DNA from: Verrucomicrobiia bacterium
Lineage (GTDB): Bacteria > Verrucomicrobiota > Verrucomicrobiia > Limisphaerales > UBA8199
Direction: 5' to 3'
DNA: 42,389 bases
NCBI GenBank assembly: GCA_035946615.1
Contig: DASYZB010000113.1
Location: forward strand, 1-42,389
Part shown: positions 519 through 39,775 of the stretch, one piece after another
Position numbering within the stretch: the stretch's first letter is position 1
Layout: each line of letters opens with the position of its first letter
Notes under the pieces: model-generated
The model's input: only the letters and a program-made list of their open reading frames with translations
What the model was told of the DNA's origin: nothing
Database searches by the model: none
Position numbers and translations under genes: made by a program

Positions 519-617
519 TTTGGAGTGCGCCGGCAAAGGGCAGCATCGACGGTGCTTTTGCCGGCACGCGGCCAGTTCCAAAGCGGCGTCGCGCTTCGCT
601 TGCCGCCGCACTCCAAA
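519..617. repeat. Palindromic intergenic repeat between ugd and mutT
   Basis: The two ends (519-536 and 600-617) are inverted copies matching at 17 of 18 bases, beginning TTTGGAGTGCG. Inside, a second perfect 9-bp inverted repeat, GCCGGCAAA at 529-537 and TTTGCCGGC at 557-565, can form an alternative hairpin. The element begins 3 bp after the ugd stop and ends 25 bp before the mutT ATG. It has no coding potential of its own and extends the mutT frame artificially. It resembles a MITE- or REP-like unit; copy number elsewhere is not visible here. Confidence 0.7.
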
Positions 618-3637: not shown

Positions 3638-4336
3638 ATGAAAACATGCATACTTATCAGCTCATTGGCCTTGGTCGCCAGCTCTCTCATGGCCGCTGAA
3701 CCCAAGGACGACGTCACCAACGCAGCTAAAAAGCTCGCAGACCAGGACAACTATAGCTGGAAACAAACGATGGAGAATGCCAATGGCGGCGGCTTCGGCC
3801 CTGCCTCAGCGGAGGGCAAAATTGAGAAGGGCGGCGCCGTCTGGATGTCCATGACGATGCGGGACAATACCATCGAGGCGGTTAAAACGGGGAACAAAGG
3901 CGCCATTAAAACCGAGGACGGCTGGGTGTCGATGGCCGACGCAGCGGGCGGAGACCGCGGCCCGGCAATGTTCATGGCGCGGCGTTTGCAAAATTTCAAA
4001 GGACCGGCCACCCAAGTCCAGGACCTGCTGGCCAACACCACCGACCTGAAACAGGACGGCGACGTTTATTCGGGAGACCTGAACGAAGAGGGCGCTAAAT
4101 CACAATTGCGCTTCGGCGGACGCGGCGGAAATGGGCCCGAGATTAGCGGCGCCAAAGGGACAGCGAAATTCTGGGTCAAGGATGGTTTGCTCTCGAAGTA
4201 CGCCGTGCATGTGAAGGGAACGGTCAGTTTCAATGGCAATGACCGCGACGTGGACCGCACGACTACAGTTGAAATTAAAAATGTCGGTTCCACAAAAGTC
4301 GAGGTGCCCGAGGAAGCAAAGAAGAAGATGGGATGA
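3638..4336 (+). CDS. Secreted protein of unknown function
   Basis: A 232-residue protein with a clear Sec signal peptide: MKTC, a hydrophobic run to about residue 18, and a probable cleavage after SLMAA. The mature part is hydrophilic, begins with a helix rich in Lys/Asp (about 22-45), and then has alternating beta-like segments (VWMSMTMRD, KFWVKDGLLSKYAVHVKG, TTTVEIKN). This pattern recalls LolA/LppX-type lipoprotein-binding folds, but no diagnostic motif is present and the resemblance is an inference. It stands alone on the plus strand with a terminator 117 bp downstream. No operon partner is evident. Gly/Gly-rich stretches (NGGGFG, FGGRGGNG) are unusual for a compact domain. Confidence 0.6.
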   Translation: MKTCILISSLALVASSLMAAEPKDDVTNAAKKLADQDNYSWKQTMENANGGGFGPASAEGKIEKGGAVWMSMTMRDNTIEAVKTGNKGAIKTEDGWVSMADAAGGDRGPAMFMARRLQNFKGPATQVQDLLANTTDLKQDGDVYSGDLNEEGAKSQLRFGGRGGNGPEISGAKGTAKFWVKDGLLSKYAVHVKGTVSFNGNDRDVDRTTTVEIKNVGSTKVEVPEEAKKKMG

Positions 4337-31346: not shown

Positions 31347-34300
31347 TTACTGAACCGACCGGAAGAACAGGTTGCCGGTTGTCGAGCTGATTGGGATGAC
31401 GACCGGGCTCGGGCTTGAATCCGGGGTCCAAACGACCGGTTTGGTGCTCAGGTCGGTGGTGGTCTGGAGAGTGCCGGTGTAGGTGATGGTCAGGTTCACC
31501 CCGTCGCTCCTGATGCTGAGCTGAGGCGTGGTCGAGACCAGGCTGTAGTAGGCCGCCAAACCCAGGCCGGAGCTTGGGTTGCTCAGGTCGTTGACGAGCT
31601 TGCGAGTACCGTTGGTGCCGGTCAGTGAATAAAACTCGACGTTCACGCCGCCGCCACCGTTCCAGTACACCAGGCGCAATGGATATGCCTGAGGCGCGTT
31701 GGTGACGGTGACCTGGAAGTTGCAATCACTGTTGCCTTTACCGGCCGATGTCTGGCCCAGAACGCGGTCATCGGTCGGGTTGAGCATATCGTAGGAAGGC
31801 GTGATAGTGACGTTGACCGTATTGGTCTGCATGGCGGCGACCAGAGCATTGCCATCGGTCTCTTCGATCATCACCATGGGGATCGGCTGCATCGGGCTGA
31901 CGCCCAGTTCCTCAGCCAAAAGACCATCGGTTGTCGGCCGATGCTTCTGGATGAGGACGACCGCTTGGGCGCCGGCCAAAGCGGCATTCTGGACCTGCTG
32001 CAGGGCGCCGCAGTTAGCGCTGCGATACATCAGGGCTATCTTGCCAACTAATTGCGACGGATTGAACAGGACGCAACCTTCGCCATTGGAGACGCTCCCG
32101 AACCCGATACCATCCGGCATCACCAGATCGCCGGTGATGAAGTTGGTGACAGGCTGCGACGAGACCGGCTGCTCGCAGGAGTTCATCGCGGCGGCTTTAA
32201 AGCCGGCGACACCCGAAGGGCTGTTGACGAGCAAGGCCCCGTTATTGGTCGGCGTATCCCAGCCCTGCAATAGGCGGAACCCATCATCGCTGCTGACCCC
32301 CAGTGTATAAGTGCCGTTGGTCGGGAAATCGACGTAAGCGAGGATTTCCAGGGCCACGCTATTGCTCCTGTCGTTATTCTGCGTTGTGGGGCCAAGGCCG
32401 GGCAAGCCGGGCATGGGTTGGTCGGGGAAACCGCCCGAGGCCTGGAAGTCGCCGGCATTGGCTGGGTATTGGGCGTTGAGGTTGACTACTCCATTGCTCG
32501 GGCCACCACCGGTCAGGTCGAAGTAACCGTTATCAATCGCGCCGGCGTTCGTGACAGGGCCCGGGTAGGTGGCCGGGCCGAGGTTGGCCTGGTTGGGCCC
32601 CCAGATGCCGGCCAGGAGTTGCTCGGAGATCGGCACCCGATTCGGTATCGTCAGACCGCCAGTTGTGACCGCGCCCTCATTGACCCCACGATCGTCAATA
32701 GCCGGATCAACCTGATAGGTGCGCACTTTGAACCCAGGTTTGGTTGTATCGAGCTTGGATTCAGCCACCCCGCCCACATGGAGCGTAGCGCCGCCAAATG
32801 GCGTTTCCATATAGGCAACGAAGTTGGTGTGCCAGGCGCTGGTATTGTCCTGGTAATAGACCATCAGCGGGCCGTAACTGCCGGAAGGCCAGTAGCCGTT
32901 GGTGGCCGAACGGAGGAGGGCTGTGATGCCGTTGCCGTTCGTCACGGTGATCGGTTGCGTGGCGCCATTGAAGGACAAGATCGCGCTCGTCGGATTGATG
33001 GTGGTCGTATTGCCATCCTGGAGGAACACCCAAACATCCTGACTGTTGGGTACGGTTTGCGTGGTGCCGGTGCCACCCAAAGTCAGACCGGGCTGACCGG
33101 ACTGAGCGTTATTGAGCCCATTGGTCGGGGGATTTCCGCTGCCGATGGATGCCGTAACAGCCAACACTTCTGGCGGTACGGTCTGCAGGGTTTGATATAC
33201 CTTGACCGCATCCGGCACATTGGGATCGCCAACGATGACGCGCTCGACTGAACCGTCAGACATGGGTTGGATCAGGGTCCATTCTACACTGAGCCCGCCG
33301 GTGCCGTTGTACCACAGCAGGCGAATCGGGTAGGCCCCAGCCTGCGGGATGTTGAAGACAAAGGGAGTGACCGAGCCACGGAACGGATTGGCCGCACCGC
33401 CGGTAGTATTGCCGCGGCCGCCGTCAGCGAAGCCGAGGATGATTCCTGCCTCGCTGAAGGGATTGCCGCCAAGCGGGGTTGTCACTTTAAAGCCATCATC
33501 GCTGTTGACGGTCATGCCGTAGAGGCCGGCCTTCGGGAAATTCATCCAACCGGCGAAGATCATGGTGTTGTAATTAACCGCGTTGCCACCGCCTTGGAGT
33601 TGGAAGCCGAAGTTGGTGTTCATGCCCCAATTGTAACGGTACTCACCGTTTGAGCCATTGGCGCCGACATTCTCGACGAAATCCATTTGGTAGGGCCAGA
33701 CGAAGAAGCCGGGTCCATTGGTGAAGCTCTGGTCGGCGATATTCGGCCCCCACATGCCGAGGAACTGGGCTTCGGCAAAGGCGATGTTCGGTCCTGAATT
33801 GGTCGCCGTCGTCTGGTAGGATTTCACGCGGAACCCAGGCTGCGTTTGATCGACCAGGGAGGGGTCGACGCGCTGGCTGGCGGGCACCTGGACGATGCTC
33901 AAGCCAGGGCCAACCGCCGTGAACGGCCAGATATTCGTGTACGAGTTGCCAAGCGTATCCTTGTAGGTCAGCACGTTGGTATGCGCGCCATTGGACCAGA
34001 AGAAGCCTTCAGTCAACTGCTGGGCAACCCGGGTAACGCCAGCCGAGGGGTGGGAGGTGGTGATGGTCTGGGCCAAGCCGTCGCTGGTCAACTGGATGCT
34101 GGTCGCATCGACTGTCTTCCCAGTTGCGCCATCGGCCAGATCGACCACAGTCGGTTCCCAGAAGTTGACATCCGGCTCGTTATACACCGGGTCAAGGCGC
34201 TGCACATAGGGAGCGGTTGGCTCACCGGTTGTGAGGGCCTGGTAGGCCTTGACGCCATCGGCTTTATTCGGGTCATTGACGGCCATCTTCAGCACCGAAC

Positions 34301-37300
34301 CATCGGCTCGCCGCTGATAAACGGACCACTCGATGCCGCCGTCGCCGCCGCCATTGTAGTAAAGGAGCCGGAATGGGTAGGCGCCGGCCGTTGGGATATT
34401 GAACTGGAAGTAGGACCCGCCGGTTTGCGCAAAGGAGTTGGGCCCAGCCATGCCGCGGCCAACGTCGGCTGCGAAGATATAGGTGCCGAGTTTCCCGCCG
34501 GGGGTGCCTTGTGGGACCATGACGCGGAAGCCGTCGTCGGTGTTCACGAACATGATGTAGTTGCCCGGTTGATTGAAGACCAGCCACGACGCATACTCAA
34601 TGGCACTTTCCTCAGTCAAGGTATCGCTCGGGGTGTTGTTGAAGCGGTAGGCGGGCGCAATAGCACCGACGCCGAACCCGGTGAAATCGCCGAGGTCGTA
34701 AGTCCACTCACCCTGGGCACCGTTCCCGCTGGAATAGCGGAAATCGACGAGGTTGTTCCAGGTGAAGTAGCCGGTGCCGCCGGTGCCTGTTTGGTCAGCG
34801 ACGTTGAAGCCGTGTTCGCCGAGCAGTTCGGCTTCGGTGAAGCCGCTATGACCCTGGCCGGCTTCCATCGGGGTTTGATAGGAGCGGACGCGGAATCCAG
34901 GTTTGGAGGAATCCACCGCGCTGGCGCTGACGCCGGCGGAGGCTGGGATGCTGATGATGGCGGTGCTGTTGGTCGAATCGGCCGAGGCCACCCCTAAGAC
35001 TCCACCCAGGACGTTGAACGTCCATGTGTAGGTATAATTGGTGCCAAGATTATCCGCGAAGGTCAGCAGGTTGGTATGGCTGCCGCTGGACCAAAAACCG
35101 GTCAGGGTCTGGGCGACATGGAACCCGTTGCCTGTGGCCGTAGTGGTCACCGTCTGGGGCGCGCCATCGACGCTCAAGGCAATGGTGCTTTGGTTGACGG
35201 TCTTGCTCCCCGTGCCGTTGGCCAGATCGACCGTGACGGGCTGATAATAGACAACGTCAAAATCGCCCCGAACCGGGTCGGCCTTGGTGATGTAAGGTCC
35301 GACATCCACGGTGCCATTCAAGGCGCGGAAGGTCTTAAGGACGATGCCGCCGGATTGGTTTACGGTATTGTTATCATTGACAAGGAACGTATCGATTCCA
35401 GGCGACCCGACAGGAGGGGTGATGGTGTACCATTCCAAGGCGGCTCCGCCACCACCGTTTTCATAGACGAGGCGGATAGGATAGACACCGGCTTGATCGA
35501 TGATGACCTGGTGGATATCGGCGCCAACAAGAGGGGGCGACGAAGCAGTAGGCACACGCGCCCCGCTACTGGTCCAGAGCACTTGGCCCATGCGGTCCTG
35601 AGGGTTTTGCGAGACGCTGAGTTGGAAGTTGTCATCGGTGCCGACGACCATGTTATAGACGCCGCTGGTCGGGAAATAGATGTAGCCGAAGAATTCCAGG
35701 GCCGAGTTGTCATAAATATCATAGCGGGCCGCGCCATACTGGGTATCCTGGGGGTAATTTGCGCCAATACCAAAGCTGGTTAAATCGGCGTCATTGGCGA
35801 AGAAGGTGGCGCTGACGGCGCGTCCGGAGGGATTATAGAAGCCCAACGGACCACTCCAGACATCAAAGCCATTTTCCTGGCTGACAGTGCCGGCGCCCAC
35901 GGCATTCGTGCCGTGATAACCCATTACCTGTTCATCCGCCCACCAAATCGCGTTCGGATCAGCCTCACGGCTCTGGTACGGGCTGACATAAAAGCCGGGT
36001 TTGGTCTGGTCCACGGCGCTCAGCGGGAGGACGTAATTGGTCGGGAAAGCGGCATAATTGGGAACCGCGAAGAGGCCTTCGGCGGTCTGAGTGACGCTAA
36101 AGCTATCGACAAAGGTGACGGAAACCGTGTGAACCGAGCCGGGTGCAAATCGGGCGGCCTGGGAATAGGCGCCGGTGGTGATGGGGGCGCTGTAGGTGGT
36201 GGGGGTCTGGGCGGTGACATCAGTGCCATCCAGTAGAACGCTTGATACGCTGGTGACCGTGGAGGCGCCGTTATCCGAGAGATGGAATGTGAAGCTGGTC
36301 AGGCCGCCTTGGACATCGACCAGGTAAGCGTTGGTGCTGACGGTGGTATCGACAACGAGGTTATCGATATGGACGTTTTGGTTGTTGCCGCCGCAACGGC
36401 CAGCCAGGACCAGGCGCCCGACGGTGGGCGAAAAGACTGCGAGGTTTGTGTTCACAACGGTAACACCCTTCCAGCTCACGGTGAGGTTGTTGGTCACGAT
36501 GGTGGCCACGGAGCTGATATTGGTGAGGCGCACCATCAGGTGCTGCCAAAAGAGATTGGTAAACGAGCCGGAGGACTCGCTATTGCCGTAGGTTGCAGTG
36601 CACGTGAGGAAATTGGCGGTGACCAATGCATTGGTGCCGGTCTGTTCGCTCAGCCCCTTGGCGTCATTGCTCAGTCCAGTTTGAGGGGAGGGGATGCAGT
36701 CCTTCTCATTACGGTTATTCTGCAGGTTGAGTTGGACGAGGGTGTGGTCATCGACGCGCACCGCAATGCCTTCGCGGTCGTTGCTGCCGCCGGTGTTATT
36801 GATGGGCTGTGTGTCGGGCAACCAATTGCCTTGCCAGGCATCGAATACCACCGCCACGCCCGTCTTGGTGCCGTTCTCAACGTCGGTGCTGCCGAGGGGA
36901 TTCTGCGCGTTCGCGATGCTGCCGTCGCCGCCCGCGAACCCGCCCACAATGCCGTTGGTGGCGTTTTGCAGGGCAATGTCACCGTTTCTGGCGAAGCTGA
37001 TGCTGAAGCCGTCGGCGGGCCGGCCATTGGCGGCATTGGGATTGCCCACGCGCATGTCCATGTCGATTTGAAACGCCTTGACCGGCAACCCGCTGTCCAC
37101 GTCTGGAAAGACAAAGACCAGGTTGTTATTGCCGTTGGTGGCGTCGCAGAGCGACAGGTAACCGCCGGTCTTGGGGTTGCCGTTGATGCCGACACCCGCG
37201 CCGCTGGACCAGATTTGTTCTCCGGTGGCGCTATAGTAATTGTGGGTGCCGAGAATGAGGGCCTGGCTGAGGGCCGGGTCCGACCCGGGGTCGTTGTCGA

Positions 37301-37388
37301 AGTTAAAAACCTGGTGACCGGCGAAGACCGTGCCCGAGCAGGCGGCGCCCAGAAGGGCGGCGCCGATGAGTTTGACTGTTCTTTTCAT
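31347..37388 (-). CDS. Giant secreted protein with lectin-like, four PA14-like and one inserted PA domain
   Basis: A 2013-residue exported protein. Signal peptide 1-23 (cleavage after VFA). Residues about 24-350 look like an L-type lectin/ConA-like domain (ADGFSISFARNGDIAL). Then four modules of about 355-370 residues start near 458, 828, 1183 and 1549 with KPGF-V--YQ (for example KPGFRVRSYQT). Each has a PA14-like sandwich marked by TDDNF/TDDGF/SDDGF (about 579, 951, 1296, 1701) and YP-RL-Y-NGGGG. Ig-like segments join the modules. In the fourth, a protease-associated (PA) domain (about 1739-1863; GKIALMYRSANCGALQQVQ) is inserted between these strands. The C-terminus (about 1955-2013) is a TDLS-type beta domain with no PEP-CTERM signal. 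Probably a glycan-binding surface or matrix protein; ligand unknown. Confidence 0.85.
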   Translation of the reverse strand: MKRTVKLIGAALLGAACSGTVFAGHQVFNFDNDPGSDPALSQALILGTHNYYSATGEQIWSSGAGVGINGNPKTGGYLSLCDATNGNNNLVFVFPDVDSGLPVKAFQIDMDMRVGNPNAANGRPADGFSISFARNGDIALQNATNGIVGGFAGGDGSIANAQNPLGSTDVENGTKTGVAVVFDAWQGNWLPDTQPINNTGGSNDREGIAVRVDDHTLVQLNLQNNRNEKDCIPSPQTGLSNDAKGLSEQTGTNALVTANFLTCTATYGNSESSGSFTNLFWQHLMVRLTNISSVATIVTNNLTVSWKGVTVVNTNLAVFSPTVGRLVLAGRCGGNNQNVHIDNLVVDTTVSTNAYLVDVQGGLTSFTFHLSDNGASTVTSVSSVLLDGTDVTAQTPTTYSAPITTGAYSQAARFAPGSVHTVSVTFVDSFSVTQTAEGLFAVPNYAAFPTNYVLPLSAVDQTKPGFYVSPYQSREADPNAIWWADEQVMGYHGTNAVGAGTVSQENGFDVWSGPLGFYNPSGRAVSATFFANDADLTSFGIGANYPQDTQYGAARYDIYDNSALEFFGYIYFPTSGVYNMVVGTDDNFQLSVSQNPQDRMGQVLWTSSGARVPTASSPPLVGADIHQVIIDQAGVYPIRLVYENGGGGAALEWYTITPPVGSPGIDTFLVNDNNTVNQSGGIVLKTFRALNGTVDVGPYITKADPVRGDFDVVYYQPVTVDLANGTGSKTVNQSTIALSVDGAPQTVTTTATGNGFHVAQTLTGFWSSGSHTNLLTFADNLGTNYTYTWTFNVLGGVLGVASADSTNSTAIISIPASAGVSASAVDSSKPGFRVRSYQTPMEAGQGHSGFTEAELLGEHGFNVADQTGTGGTGYFTWNNLVDFRYSSGNGAQGEWTYDLGDFTGFGVGAIAPAYRFNNTPSDTLTEESAIEYASWLVFNQPGNYIMFVNTDDGFRVMVPQGTPGGKLGTYIFAADVGRGMAGPNSFAQTGGSYFQFNIPTAGAYPFRLLYYNGGGDGGIEWSVYQRRADGSVLKMAVNDPNKADGVKAYQALTTGEPTAPYVQRLDPVYNEPDVNFWEPTVVDLADGATGKTVDATSIQLTSDGLAQTITTSHPSAGVTRVAQQLTEGFFWSNGAHTNVLTYKDTLGNSYTNIWPFTAVGPGLSIVQVPASQRVDPSLVDQTQPGFRVKSYQTTATNSGPNIAFAEAQFLGMWGPNIADQSFTNGPGFFVWPYQMDFVENVGANGSNGEYRYNWGMNTNFGFQLQGGGNAVNYNTMIFAGWMNFPKAGLYGMTVNSDDGFKVTTPLGGNPFSEAGIILGFADGGRGNTTGGAANPFRGSVTPFVFNIPQAGAYPIRLLWYNGTGGLSVEWTLIQPMSDGSVERVIVGDPNVPDAVKVYQTLQTVPPEVLAVTASIGSGNPPTNGLNNAQSGQPGLTLGGTGTTQTVPNSQDVWVFLQDGNTTTINPTSAILSFNGATQPITVTNGNGITALLRSATNGYWPSGSYGPLMVYYQDNTSAWHTNFVAYMETPFGGATLHVGGVAESKLDTTKPGFKVRTYQVDPAIDDRGVNEGAVTTGGLTIPNRVPISEQLLAGIWGPNQANLGPATYPGPVTNAGAIDNGYFDLTGGGPSNGVVNLNAQYPANAGDFQASGGFPDQPMPGLPGLGPTTQNNDRSNSVALEILAYVDFPTNGTYTLGVSSDDGFRLLQGWDTPTNNGALLVNSPSGVAGFKAAAMNSCEQPVSSQPVTNFITGDLVMPDGIGFGSVSNGEGCVLFNPSQLVGKIALMYRSANCGALQQVQNAALAGAQAVVLIQKHRPTTDGLLAEELGVSPMQPIPMVMIEETDGNALVAAMQTNTVNVTITPSYDMLNPTDDRVLGQTSAGKGNSDCNFQVTVTNAPQAYPLRLVYWNGGGGVNVEFYSLTGTNGTRKLVNDLSNPSSGLGLAAYYSLVSTTPQLSIRSDGVNLTITYTGTLQTTTDLSTKPVVWTPDSSPSPVVIPISSTTGNLFFRSVQ

Positions 37389-37493: not shown

Positions 37494-38582
37494 TCAGGAT
37501 TTGCGCCGGCGCGACGTGATGGCCAGGGTCAAGCCGAAGCCGCCGACGATGCAAAAGGCCAAAGTGGAGGGTTCAGGAACGGGGGTAATAAAGCCGGTGG
37601 CGGGGTCTATCGACGCCTGGGTGTCACCTGTAATATTAAAATAGATTTGTGAAAGCTGGCCAGCGGTCAGAGCCGAACCGCTGCTGCCGAACCGCAAGGT
37701 ATCGCCGCTGGTCCAGCCGTCGATGGTTAGGACAGCGCCGCTAGCCCAATTGATCGAGTGGCTGTCGGAAAAGGTGAGAGAATTGGTGCCGGTTGGTGAC
37801 AGGTCCAACGTCGCGTTGCCTTGAAGATTTAAGGTGCCGAAAGACTGATTATAGTCGCCGGTGTTGACGGTGCCGCCGTTCAAGAGGAGCTGGCCCGTGC
37901 CGAAGGCATTGACTTTGCCGGCTTGGATTGTCCCGGCGTTGACAGTAGTGGTGCCGGTATACGCATTGGCGTGCGTGCCGCCCAGGGTCAATGTGCCGAT
38001 GCCGTTCTTGATTAAGCTCCCATTGGCGATATCGCCACGGCCAGTCCCTGTCCCAATAGTTGTATTAAAGCCGCCATCAATCGTTAGAGTACCGCCCTGG
38101 AGGTTGACGGTGGCCAAACCGGCATTATACGAACCACTGAACACCAGCGCGCCCGAGGCAGCATTCCAGGTTTGCGATGCACTGGAACCGGTGCCACCGC
38201 TTGAGCTGTACAATAATATAGGGGCGTTGATGGTTTGGGTGGCGGTTTCGTCGTTCTGGATTCCGTTAGGGGTGCCGCCCGCGCGCAGGTTGAGTTGCTG
38301 GCTTCCACTGCTAAAGATGGTGAAGCCGGTGCCGCCGGTGTAAGCCCCAAAAGTGAGGCCTTGGGCCTGCCCAGGAAATGAGCCACCAAGATCGACACTG
38401 GTGATAATGGTTGAGCTGTCCTGGAAAGCCACCGGCGTGGTTGCCGCAGGAACAACACCTGTGCTCCAGTTTCCCGAGGTCTGCCAAGCCGAAGTTATAG
38501 TGCTAATCCAAGTATCTGCGCCAAGGGCTGGTAAACTGAGAGCTGCAAGTAATGCGGGGGTTAGTAGGAGGGTTTTTCTCAT
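37494..38582 (-). CDS. PEP-CTERM autotransporter-associated beta-strand protein
   Basis: A 362-residue exported protein. Signal peptide 1-22 (MRKTLLLTPALLAALSLPALG). The middle is Gly/Thr/Asn-rich with repeated strands, such as LTLGGTHANAYTGTTTVNAGTIQAG-type, which is the autotransporter-associated beta-strand repeat. The C-terminus is a PEP-CTERM sorting tag: PVPEPSTLAF, a hydrophobic segment (FCIVGGFGLTLAI), then SRRRKS. This tag is recognised by exosortase, implying an EPS-linked export system elsewhere in the genome. It lies 105 bp before the giant gene, on the same strand, with its own promoter and terminator. Confidence 0.9.
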   Translation of the reverse strand: MRKTLLLTPALLAALSLPALGADTWISTITSAWQTSGNWSTGVVPAATTPVAFQDSSTIITSVDLGGSFPGQAQGLTFGAYTGGTGFTIFSSGSQQLNLRAGGTPNGIQNDETATQTINAPILLYSSSGGTGSSASQTWNAASGALVFSGSYNAGLATVNLQGGTLTIDGGFNTTIGTGTGRGDIANGSLIKNGIGTLTLGGTHANAYTGTTTVNAGTIQAGKVNAFGTGQLLLNGGTVNTGDYNQSFGTLNLQGNATLDLSPTGTNSLTFSDSHSINWASGAVLTIDGWTSGDTLRFGSSGSALTAGQLSQIYFNITGDTQASIDPATGFITPVPEPSTLAFCIVGGFGLTLAITSRRRKS

Positions 38583-38761: not shown

Positions 38762-38809
38762 CCTAAAGCGGCAGAGGACTGCCGCAGTCCAAAACGCTGA
38801 CGCGCCGAC
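38762..38809 (+). repeat. REP-like palindrome, copy A
   Basis: A 48-bp unit starting CCTAAAGCGGCAGAGG. It carries two overlapping hairpins: GCGGCAG-AGGA-CTGCCGC and GGACTGC-C-GCAGTCC. It matches copy C (38953-39000) at 47 of 48 bases. Confidence 0.8.
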
Positions 38810-38844
38810 GCAAAGCCGGGGACCTCAGTCCGCGCGAAGCGTCG

Positions 38845-38872
38845 TGGACTGCGCCAGTCCTCTGGCGCTTTT
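38845..38872 (-). repeat. REP-like palindrome, copy B, inverted
   Basis: The reverse complement of this stretch reads AAGCGCCAGAGGACTGG then CGCAGTCCA, the same unit in opposite orientation. The first hairpin keeps pairing through changes on both arms: GCGCCAG-AGGA-CTGGCGC, where copies A and C have GCGGCAG and CTGCCGC. This is compensatory. Confidence 0.75.
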
Positions 38873-38952
38873 GGGACTAACCTTGGGCGAGAGGTTCCCC
38901 GCGCGGTTCAACTGGTATTTGAGCGGCGGGGATAGTGGGATGAGGAGGACAT

Positions 38953-39000
38953 CCTAAAGCGGCAGAGGACTGCCGCAGTCCAAAACGCTGGCGCGCCGAC
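38953..39000 (+). repeat. REP-like palindrome, copy C
   Basis: The 48-bp unit again, 23 bp beyond the transposase stop. It differs from copy A at one base outside the hairpins. The stretch 38874-38952 between copies has no gene. Confidence 0.8.
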
Positions 39001-39023
39001 CTAGCCGGGGGGTGGTTGCGGCC

Positions 39024-39593
39024 TTACCAGTCAGGGGCTACATCAAAATCGTCATCGACATGGACCTGGTTAATCTTGAAGCGATAGATGGATTTCACGA
39101 TGGCGGACGAGGCAGACCGTTCGAACCAGGCTGCAGAACACCAGGGATATTGATTAGCCACCGGCACCAAGCCGTGTCTGACTGGATTTTGGTGAACATA
39201 ATTGAGCCGAGCCAGATAGCTTCTTTGATAAGTCAACCGGGTCTCGCGGAAATTAAACCAGACCTGCCGTCCAGATGTCCGATCTAGCTTATTCAGCCAG
39301 CCGGAGGTTTTTGTGCGCAACATGCTGAGCATGTCCCGCAGGTTTGAGGCGTCAGGCGCTTTGGGAGGCGAGTGGCCAACAAAGTGATAATGGTTGGAGA
39401 ACACGGCCCAGGCCTCGAGTTCCCAACCAAAGTCCCGCATAACTTTCAGAAGCCCGCGATGAAGGACGCGAAGACGGTCACGCCCTTTGAAATGATGCTC
39501 CTTCAGATAGGTGCTGGCCGTGACAAAGTAGGTGCCGCGCGTGCTGAGTTGGCGCAGAGGCGAATGAGGCCAAGGTGGCCGGCTCTCAAACAT
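39024..39593 (-). CDS. REP-associated tyrosine transposase (RAYT)
   Basis: A 189-residue Y1 transposase of the IS200/RAYT type. It keeps the metal-binding pair in AWAVFSNHYHFVGH (H68, H70) and the likely catalytic tyrosine Y132 in RLNYVHQNPVRHGLV, with the following YPWCSA as in the family. RAYTs are single-copy relatives of IS200 that do not move themselves widely but are thought to spread REP palindromes. Copies of the palindromes flank the gene on both sides (A-C on one side, D on the other), which is the hallmark of this system. The gene looks intact. Neighbours are unrelated to it. Confidence 0.88.
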   Translation of the reverse strand: MFESRPPWPHSPLRQLSTRGTYFVTASTYLKEHHFKGRDRLRVLHRGLLKVMRDFGWELEAWAVFSNHYHFVGHSPPKAPDASNLRDMLSMLRTKTSGWLNKLDRTSGRQVWFNFRETRLTYQRSYLARLNYVHQNPVRHGLVPVANQYPWCSAAWFERSASSAIVKSIYRFKINQVHVDDDFDVAPDW

Positions 39594-39729
39594 GAGCGCA
39601 CAATGTCAGGATTGAGTGTCCTTGGCCAGAAAGAAATGTCATTTCTCTTTGGATGACCTTTCATTCTGAGCATGCCGAGGCGGTTTTATGCTTCTGGACG
39701 TGGAGGGGAAGCCCAACGCAAGACACCGC

Positions 39730-39775
39730 CCTAAAGCGCCAGAGACTGCTGCAGTCCATGACGCTGCGCGCGGAC
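39730..39775 (+). repeat. REP-like palindrome, copy D (diverged)
   Basis: Starts CCTAAAGCGCCAGAG and keeps the second hairpin as GACTGC-TGCAGTC-like pairing, but the first hairpin is broken (GCGCCAG versus CTGCTGC). It lies directly before the YfhO-type gene stop (39778) and about 140 bp beyond the transposase start. Confidence 0.65.

Follow-up and report, generated by a model that had tools for sequence, protein, structure and literature searches.

The window analysed here, the whole 42,389-nt stretch of contig DASYZB010000113.1 from a Verrucomicrobiia bacterium, very probably carries a REP-associated tyrosine transposase (RAYT, also TnpAREP; a class 2 Y1 HUH enzyme) together with part of its cognate population of REPs and REPINs in a verrucomicrobial genome. 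The features of the locus are the following:

39024–39593, minus strand: RAYT gene, 189 aa, stop codon included; HUH motif H68-Y69-H70, catalytic Y132
38762–38809, minus strand: REP copy A, G-type; hairpin core 38767–38790, foot GGACT, hairpin GCGGCAG-TCCT-CTGCCGC (canonical reading, minus strand)
38846–38869 (palindrome 38838–38874), plus strand: REP copy B, C-type, inverted; foot GGACT at 38846–38850, hairpin GCGCCAG-TCCT-CTGGCGC
38953–39000, minus strand: REP copy C, G-type; hairpin core 38958–38981, foot GGACT on the minus strand
38828–38998, no strand assigned: REPIN of about 170 bp made up of copies B and C, feet outward, with a linker of about 84 nt between them
39730–39775, minus strand: decayed C-type REP upstream of the RAYT gene; one base is missing from a hairpin arm and the stem is broken
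39513–39515, minus strand: the Ser codon for residue 27 of the RAYT, where strand β1 ends; placed by counting from the ORF start
580–614, minus strand: one copy of the second REP family of the genome; long hairpin, foot GGAGT; this family flanks the RAYT paralogue of contig C65

The first-pass annotation of this DNA had described three related palindromes, the middle one inverted, and a diverged one at 39730, and all four are found where it placed them; the C-type upstream linker is still identifiable in the decayed copy. A search of the window with AGAGGACTGCNGCAGTCC at up to three mismatches returns six matches (three places on both strands) versus 0.14 expected, and none of 100 shuffles reached six. 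The 48-bp unit proposed from copies A and C is indeed repeated but is not the natural frame, as the stretch common to different loci is only some 43 nt long, while palindromes B and C together form the single REPIN.

The transposase had been called intact on the basis of H68/H70 and Y132, and this is borne out: the frame is open from 39593 to 39024, and H68, Y69, H70, Y132, and N136 do not vary among 21 aligned relatives, whereas P137 is replaced by alanine in some of them. Absence of the HUH and Tyr residues from a family alignment had been named as evidence that would count against the assignment, and the alignment holds every one of them. The NCBIfam model NF047646 (REP-associated tyrosine transposase) matches the protein with 76.6 bits (E = 1.7e-21), missing a cut-off of 80 bits that is a naming threshold, and Pfam Y1_Tnp scores 18.3 bits, below its cut-off of 23. 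In a sequence-profile search of the PDB the sole convincing match (E = 4.6e-8) is 4er8, the E. coli RAYT with a bound REP hairpin. The predicted fold agrees: an AlphaFold2 model built with the window sequence and those of 47 relatives (mean pLDDT 88.5) finds 4er8 as its best match in the PDB (E = 2e-8; TM 0.65 by target), followed by the IS608 and ISDra2 TnpA transposases. With Y-V-H-Q-N-P as its Tyr motif, the protein shows the class 2 form Y---NP as opposed to the class 1 form Y---Q (Table 1 of PMC6006769, a source used here in excerpt), and 62 residues separate the HUH motif from the tyrosine.

The description of the transposase as single-copy holds within the window. In the genome, a second RAYT of the same clade, 67% identical, lies on contig C65, and eight places match NF047646 at E ≤ 0.001. 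Other RAYT-like genes, taken from this genome and four distant relatives, were adjoined by stems of at least 7 bp in one of nine cases. The RAYT tree contains no well-supported group around the window's RAYT and favours neither vertical nor horizontal descent, and a plasmid search for RAYTs gave three matches with 24% identity. The gene is maintained by purifying selection, since among three close relatives dN is 0.06–0.08 against a dS of 0.64–1.11 (0.078/1.11 and 0.064/0.64), with the row for L113 left out because of a misread frame; between the window RAYT and a relative dS is saturated. Apparent TGA or TAG codons inside the RAYTs of several relatives proved, in the rows read, to be the genes' own stops near residue 183, save for true internal stops in some. 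At one related locus (L131, genome G050) a clade RAYT is split into two frames with REPs still adjoining.

We searched the assembly of the organism itself (5.6 Mb, 161 contigs) for further REPs. The oriented 24-mer AGCGNNAGAGGACTNNCGCAGTCC occurs at 90 places with up to three mismatches, 41 of them exact, versus none for the reversed control, and the palindromic core occurs at 73 places versus 2 in the control; the unit is therefore not confined to this locus, an outcome that the first-pass annotation had named as the other point against its reading. Within 290 kb fetched around REP sites, 94 copies were found at up to four mismatches, most of them of two stem types, CC/GG (38) on the one hand and GC/GC or GT/AC (20 and 15) on the other. 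REPs occur in both orientations, and several are decayed. Neighbouring REPs form 18 pairs within 400 nt of each other in the fetched DNA. Twelve of these share a single head-to-head orientation and a spacing of 110–119 nt, each combining a C-type with a G-type copy; a further two have the same orientation at 80 and 39 nt, and the remaining four have the opposite orientation at 69–79 nt. The window pair 38846/38958 is one of the C-type/G-type REPINs, with feet outward. Near-full-length copies of the unit 38828–38998 were found 12 further times in 80 fetched segments (151–177 aligned nt, 73–82% identical). Reportedly, an earlier REPIN study described an inverted REP doublet dispersed as a unit in genomes that contain a RAYT; relative to those REPINs, the REP sequence and foot differ here and the copies are fewer. 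On contig C93, four REPs stand in a row with spacings of 69, 111, and 69 nt, an arrangement that resembles a bacterial interspersed mosaic element.

An ordinary IS200/IS605 insertion sequence with subterminal hairpins would have the HUH Y1 fold in common with the window protein. We regard this explanation as extremely unlikely, because the Tyr motif is of class 2 and not the Y---Q of class 1 (PMC6006769, in part), because the genome holds just two clade copies at 67% identity and not several near-identical ones, and because roughly 90 REPs stand against two genes.

The near identity of copies A and C (47/48, as first reported) had been taken to imply recent spread. This is not supported: on other contigs no sequence matches copy A better than 44/48 or copy C better than 45/48, and near-full-length REPINs are 73–82% identical, so that the likeness of A and C is apparently due to local duplication. 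No empty site or other direct trace of movement was found. A fully domesticated DNA-binding protein or nuclease with a housekeeping role, with the REPs as fixed, immobile binding sites and old debris, is possible but rather doubtful. It would account for REPIN copies that are 82% identical at most, for the strong purifying selection on the RAYT, for two low-identity RAYT copies per genome where many near-identical ones might be sought, and for the decayed REPs; it fits poorly with the retained catalytic residues and with 41 exact cores genome-wide and different hairpins beside nearly every RAYT, which argue for turnover at some time.

Several REPs of this genome depart from the standard arrangement. 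The loop segment AGAGGACT is doubled, 0–2 nt apart, in four copies (C41:11026–11059, C84:24297–24330, C105:16938–16972, and C79 at about 4181–4216); the C41 copy unites a G-type half and a C-type half, which would fit either cutting and rejoining of two REPs or slippage during replication. Three co-oriented C-type REPs with long similar flanks (C17:2235, 3741, and 4011) belong to a larger local repeat. Beside the RAYT of a related genome (L122:2039–2790), REPs recur every ~210 nt with alternating orientation in a tandem mosaic array. We also considered the REPIN as an internal deletion of a RAYT element and rejected this, as the linker lacks a convincing counterpart at RAYT loci (best match 32 nt at 84%, L212) and the ~43-nt ends alone match.

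Hairpins, foot scans, and stem-free counts beside the RAYTs of this clade lead us to read the REP as 5′-(AGCGTYTT)GGA[C/G]T-GCG...CGC-TTT, with the foot at the position of the E. coli GTAG and one T between foot and stem. Of 25 clade RAYTs from this genome and its relatives, counting that of the window, 10 are adjoined by the 24-mer AGCGNNAGAGGACTNNCGCAGTCC at up to five mismatches, often near fixed distances. At 80 named loci, the best of 235 relatives found, an exact hairpin finder placed 126 hairpins (4.0 per kb) close to the genes and 17 (0.06 per kb) far from them, versus 0.35 in shuffles; although the search imposed GG alone, 118 of the 126 near hairpins have a GGAGT or GGACT foot. A second scan, which allowed longer hairpins and tried all possible 4-base feet at the same loci, ranked GGAG first (122 sites, 52 loci) and GGAC next (81 sites, 34 loci). 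A REP with a GGA[C/G] foot lies within 250 nt of the RAYT at 73 of the 80 loci, on both sides at 54, and at none in shuffles; seven loci had no such REP within 250 nt (L162, L170, L175, L193, L199, L212, and L219). A hold-out of 61 RAYT loci from a phylum-wide search of 387 genomes (64 loci less 3 duplicates) gave such a REP within 250 nt at 50 loci and none at 11. In a stem-free word count over 141 RAYT loci, comparing near sites with sites over 600 nt away, GGA[CG]TGCG occurs 440 times near RAYTs (39.6-fold enriched), whereas beside the same loci GTAG (1.04-fold), GTAGG (0.64-fold), and GTGG (0.82-fold) show no enrichment. REPs with GGA[C/G] feet are thus associated with this RAYT clade, in place of the canonical GT[AG]G foot. 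Applied to E. coli rayT as a control, the stem-free count recovered GTAG, which the perfect-stem scan had missed owing to the bulges in the E. coli stems. A subclade that seemed to be without short-hairpin REPs was dismissed as such when flank alignment revealed its own longer GGACT REPs.

The hairpin followed by TTT is terminator-like, and the palindromes might be transcription terminators or another RNA element, with the RAYT a bystander. This is highly unlikely, given that the copies occur in both orientations and as head-to-head pairs at fixed spacing, that the foot and its 5′ flank are conserved, and that different RAYTs have different hairpins but a constant foot.

Pairing within the hairpin was assessed on 85 distinct REPs collected with the frame GGAS[TC]-GCG-N12-CGC-TT as sole criterion, which itself sets the three outer of the seven pairs. 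All four inner pairs form in 77 REPs and three form in the other 8. Paired cells make up 98.7% of the alignment versus 81.9% in shuffles, cells with compensatory changes on both sides number 94 versus 32, and the covariation score is 0.415 versus 0.127; by the number of pairs with changes on both sides (272/500) and of further pair types (115/500), the shuffles were not beaten. Pairing of foot with loop (GGACT/AGTCC), as a pseudoknot or an alternative hairpin, seemed promising in the copies of this genome and was unsupported across relatives.

The co-occurrence of REPs with the transposase was examined in 96 relatives of the same order, with genomes treated as independent and clade RAYTs defined by E < 1e-40. 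At least 10 general-pattern REPs are present in 19 of 23 genomes with a clade RAYT versus 18 of 73 without one (Fisher 1e-6, kinship ignored), the median number per genome is 37 with and 2 without, and the total is 2780 REPs versus 97 for the reversed pattern. Four genomes with a clade RAYT have fewer than 10 REPs. The REP-rich genomes without a close RAYT may be incomplete assemblies or may hold more distant RAYTs. The one with the highest count, G079, has 94 general-pattern REPs and no clade RAYT better than E = 1.6e-6, which would indicate either an orphan REP population or a more distant RAYT partner. More than 350 general-pattern REPs were counted in each of G091, G026, and G009; in G091 many of the copies listed are paired ~160 nt apart with the stem GGTGAC, another REPIN type.

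Two systems coexist in the genome under study. A looser search found 99 REPs versus 3 in the control, and a rough sequence rule divided them into short-hairpin REPs (65 GGAC, 1 GGAG) and long-hairpin REPs (26 GGAG, 3 GGAC; Fisher 6e-19), leaving 4 unclassed, all GGAC; when the three exceptions were inspected, a short-type REP was recognized in one, and another is apparently unrelated and was caught by the rule. The short-hairpin REPs adjoin the window RAYT and the long-hairpin REPs adjoin the C65 RAYT, and a separate REP family for each RAYT is the published pattern (PMC6006769, in excerpt). In the E. coli RAYT, W94, Q95, E100, H101, and R104 touch or adjoin GTAG (same excerpt), and the contacts include the β1 region (passages of PMC8266576). 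The equivalent residues of the window RAYT are W112, F113, E117, T118, and T121, so that W94 and E100 are kept while Q95, H101, and R104 are replaced; a changed foot would suggest differences of this kind at three of the five sites.

Among 63 loci with a single kind of foot, residue 27 separates the feet best (GGAC: 20 Ser, 2 Gly; GGAG: 23 Gly, 15 Ala, 3 Ser). The C65 paralogue has Gly27. The hold-out did not confirm the association with Ser: it contained one Ser, with GGAG, and its GGAC loci had Gly in 4 cases and Arg in 3 (Fisher p = 1.0). Of 18 non-overlapping pairs on a joint tree that differ in foot, 9 showed a change in the expected direction, 9 were unchanged, and 0 were opposite, Arg having been pooled with Ser after the hold-out had been seen; residue 27 ranks first of 189 columns in this comparison, with another column at +8 and one at −7, so that chance alone brings other columns near it. 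Residue 27 is a lead, a candidate position that may track the foot. A tentative extension, less likely than not, is that the whole clade reads GGA[G/C] and has gone back and forth several times from one foot to the other, with residue 27 following (Gly or Ala with GGAG; Ser or Arg with GGAC). In the guide model, as given in sections of PMC8266576, foot bases 3 and 4 choose the cut dinucleotide, and with GTAC as a test foot cutting took place at GA or GT. If the extension is true, a foot switch would by this model replace CT by GT as the place of cutting, a natural retargeting that would be visible within one genome, where GGAC and GGAG systems stand side by side. A change of cut site following foot base 4 was looked for and discarded, the −3/−2 positions being alike in 78 GGAGT and 47 GGACT REPs.

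That foot base 4, contrary to prediction, shows no relation at −3/−2 to cutting at CT or GT would be expected if GGA[C/G]T were a conserved stem or flank alone and the enzyme recognized something elsewhere, as would the capacity of the GGACT foot to pair with the TCCT loop (GGACT/AGTCC) in that subset. We consider such a role for the foot unlikely: the GGACT/AGTCC pairing reaches 76.5% of cells versus 75.0% in shuffles and is broken in most GGAG copies, the foot stays the same where the hairpins are unrelated to one another, and it stands at the E. coli GTAG position, with E. coli rayT itself having six GTAGG and no GGA[CG]TGCG within 250 nt.

By analogy with the E. coli, S. maltophilia, and Marinomonas RAYTs, the window enzyme would bind the REP hairpin on single-stranded DNA and read the 5′ foot GGA[C/G]T. 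It would then cut beside the REP through Y132 and, by strand transfer, move or copy two-REP units (REPINs) with their feet outward. The RAYT gene itself is located amid the same REP ends.

The arrangement was originally likened to RAYT/REP systems known in gammaproteobacteria. The genome-wide copies, the family residues, the match to 4er8, and the REPs beside clade RAYTs support the comparison, and its taxonomic scope is understated, as GTAG REPs and RAYTs were described in 2013 in several phyla, Verrucomicrobia among them, with GTAG REPs in Opitutus terrae (portions of PMC3733652). E. coli RayT/TnpAREP, which has GTAG REPs and BIMEs (RAYT group 2, subclass 2.2; PDB 4er8), resembles the present system in the HUH fold and tyrosine, in a gene amid inverted REP pairs, in two REP types that alternate in orientation, and in REPs spread over the genome. 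It differs in its GTAG foot, for GGAC/GGAG plus one T before the stem here, and in bulged REP stems, the family 1 hairpin here having no bulge. By motif, and compared by description alone, subclass 2.8 is nearest to the window RAYT: on the excerpted account in PMC6006769 the two have in common NHYH, a W followed by an aromatic residue or His, Y-x-H-x-N-P, an N-terminal proline (PWPHAP), about 190–200 aa, and low copy number. Its W[YH] is W112-F113 in the window, residue 113 being H, F, or Y over 82 loci, and its GT[AG]G feet are replaced by GGA[CG]. Subclass 2.8 was described there from 8 cyanobacterial sequences with long REPs, whereas the hosts found here are Verrucomicrobiota, Acidobacteriota, Planctomycetota, and Hydrogenedentes. 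According to the same excerpts, most REP-bearing subclasses have GT[AG]G feet, 2.6 being atypical and class 3 having CnGA. Subclass 2.6 and class 3 Y1 enzymes share flanking hairpins without GT[AG]G, and class 3 also occurs in Planctomycetes and Acidobacteria; subclass 2.6 differs in a median HUH-to-Tyr distance of 82 aa, versus 62 here, and in atypical weak structures, and class 3 in its foot and a Tyr motif ending in Q. The GTAG- and CGTC-tagged REP superfamilies (PMC3733652, partial text) are likewise small dispersed palindromes, often dimeric, with a tetranucleotide tag at one end, which is GGAG/GGAC here.

The GGAG/GGAC tag differs from the described canonical GT[A/G]G feet; at the window locus it is GGAC in place of GTAG, a point on which the first-pass annotation had not remarked. 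The word GGAG is absent from the main texts of PMC3733652, PMC6006769, PMC8266576, and PMC2817692, and none of the papers searched combines GGAG and RAYT; a prior description in print is possible. In the E. coli RAYT no substitution of GTAG is tolerated (PMC8266576, in the sections cited), and a clade with a different and dimorphic foot, together with two systems in one genome, offers a natural series for guide reading and cut-site choice. In Verrucomicrobiota and the phyla near it, REP systems can escape scans that demand GT[AG]G.

Two further reading frames lie beside the RAYT locus in the window. The ORF at 37494–38582 (minus strand) ends in a C-terminal tail, PVPEPSTL...RRRKS, which we take to be a PEP-CTERM-type sorting tail of the secreted-protein type. 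The ORF at 31347–37388 (minus strand) encodes 2013 aa with internally repeated segments and, from its sequence, is probably a large surface protein.
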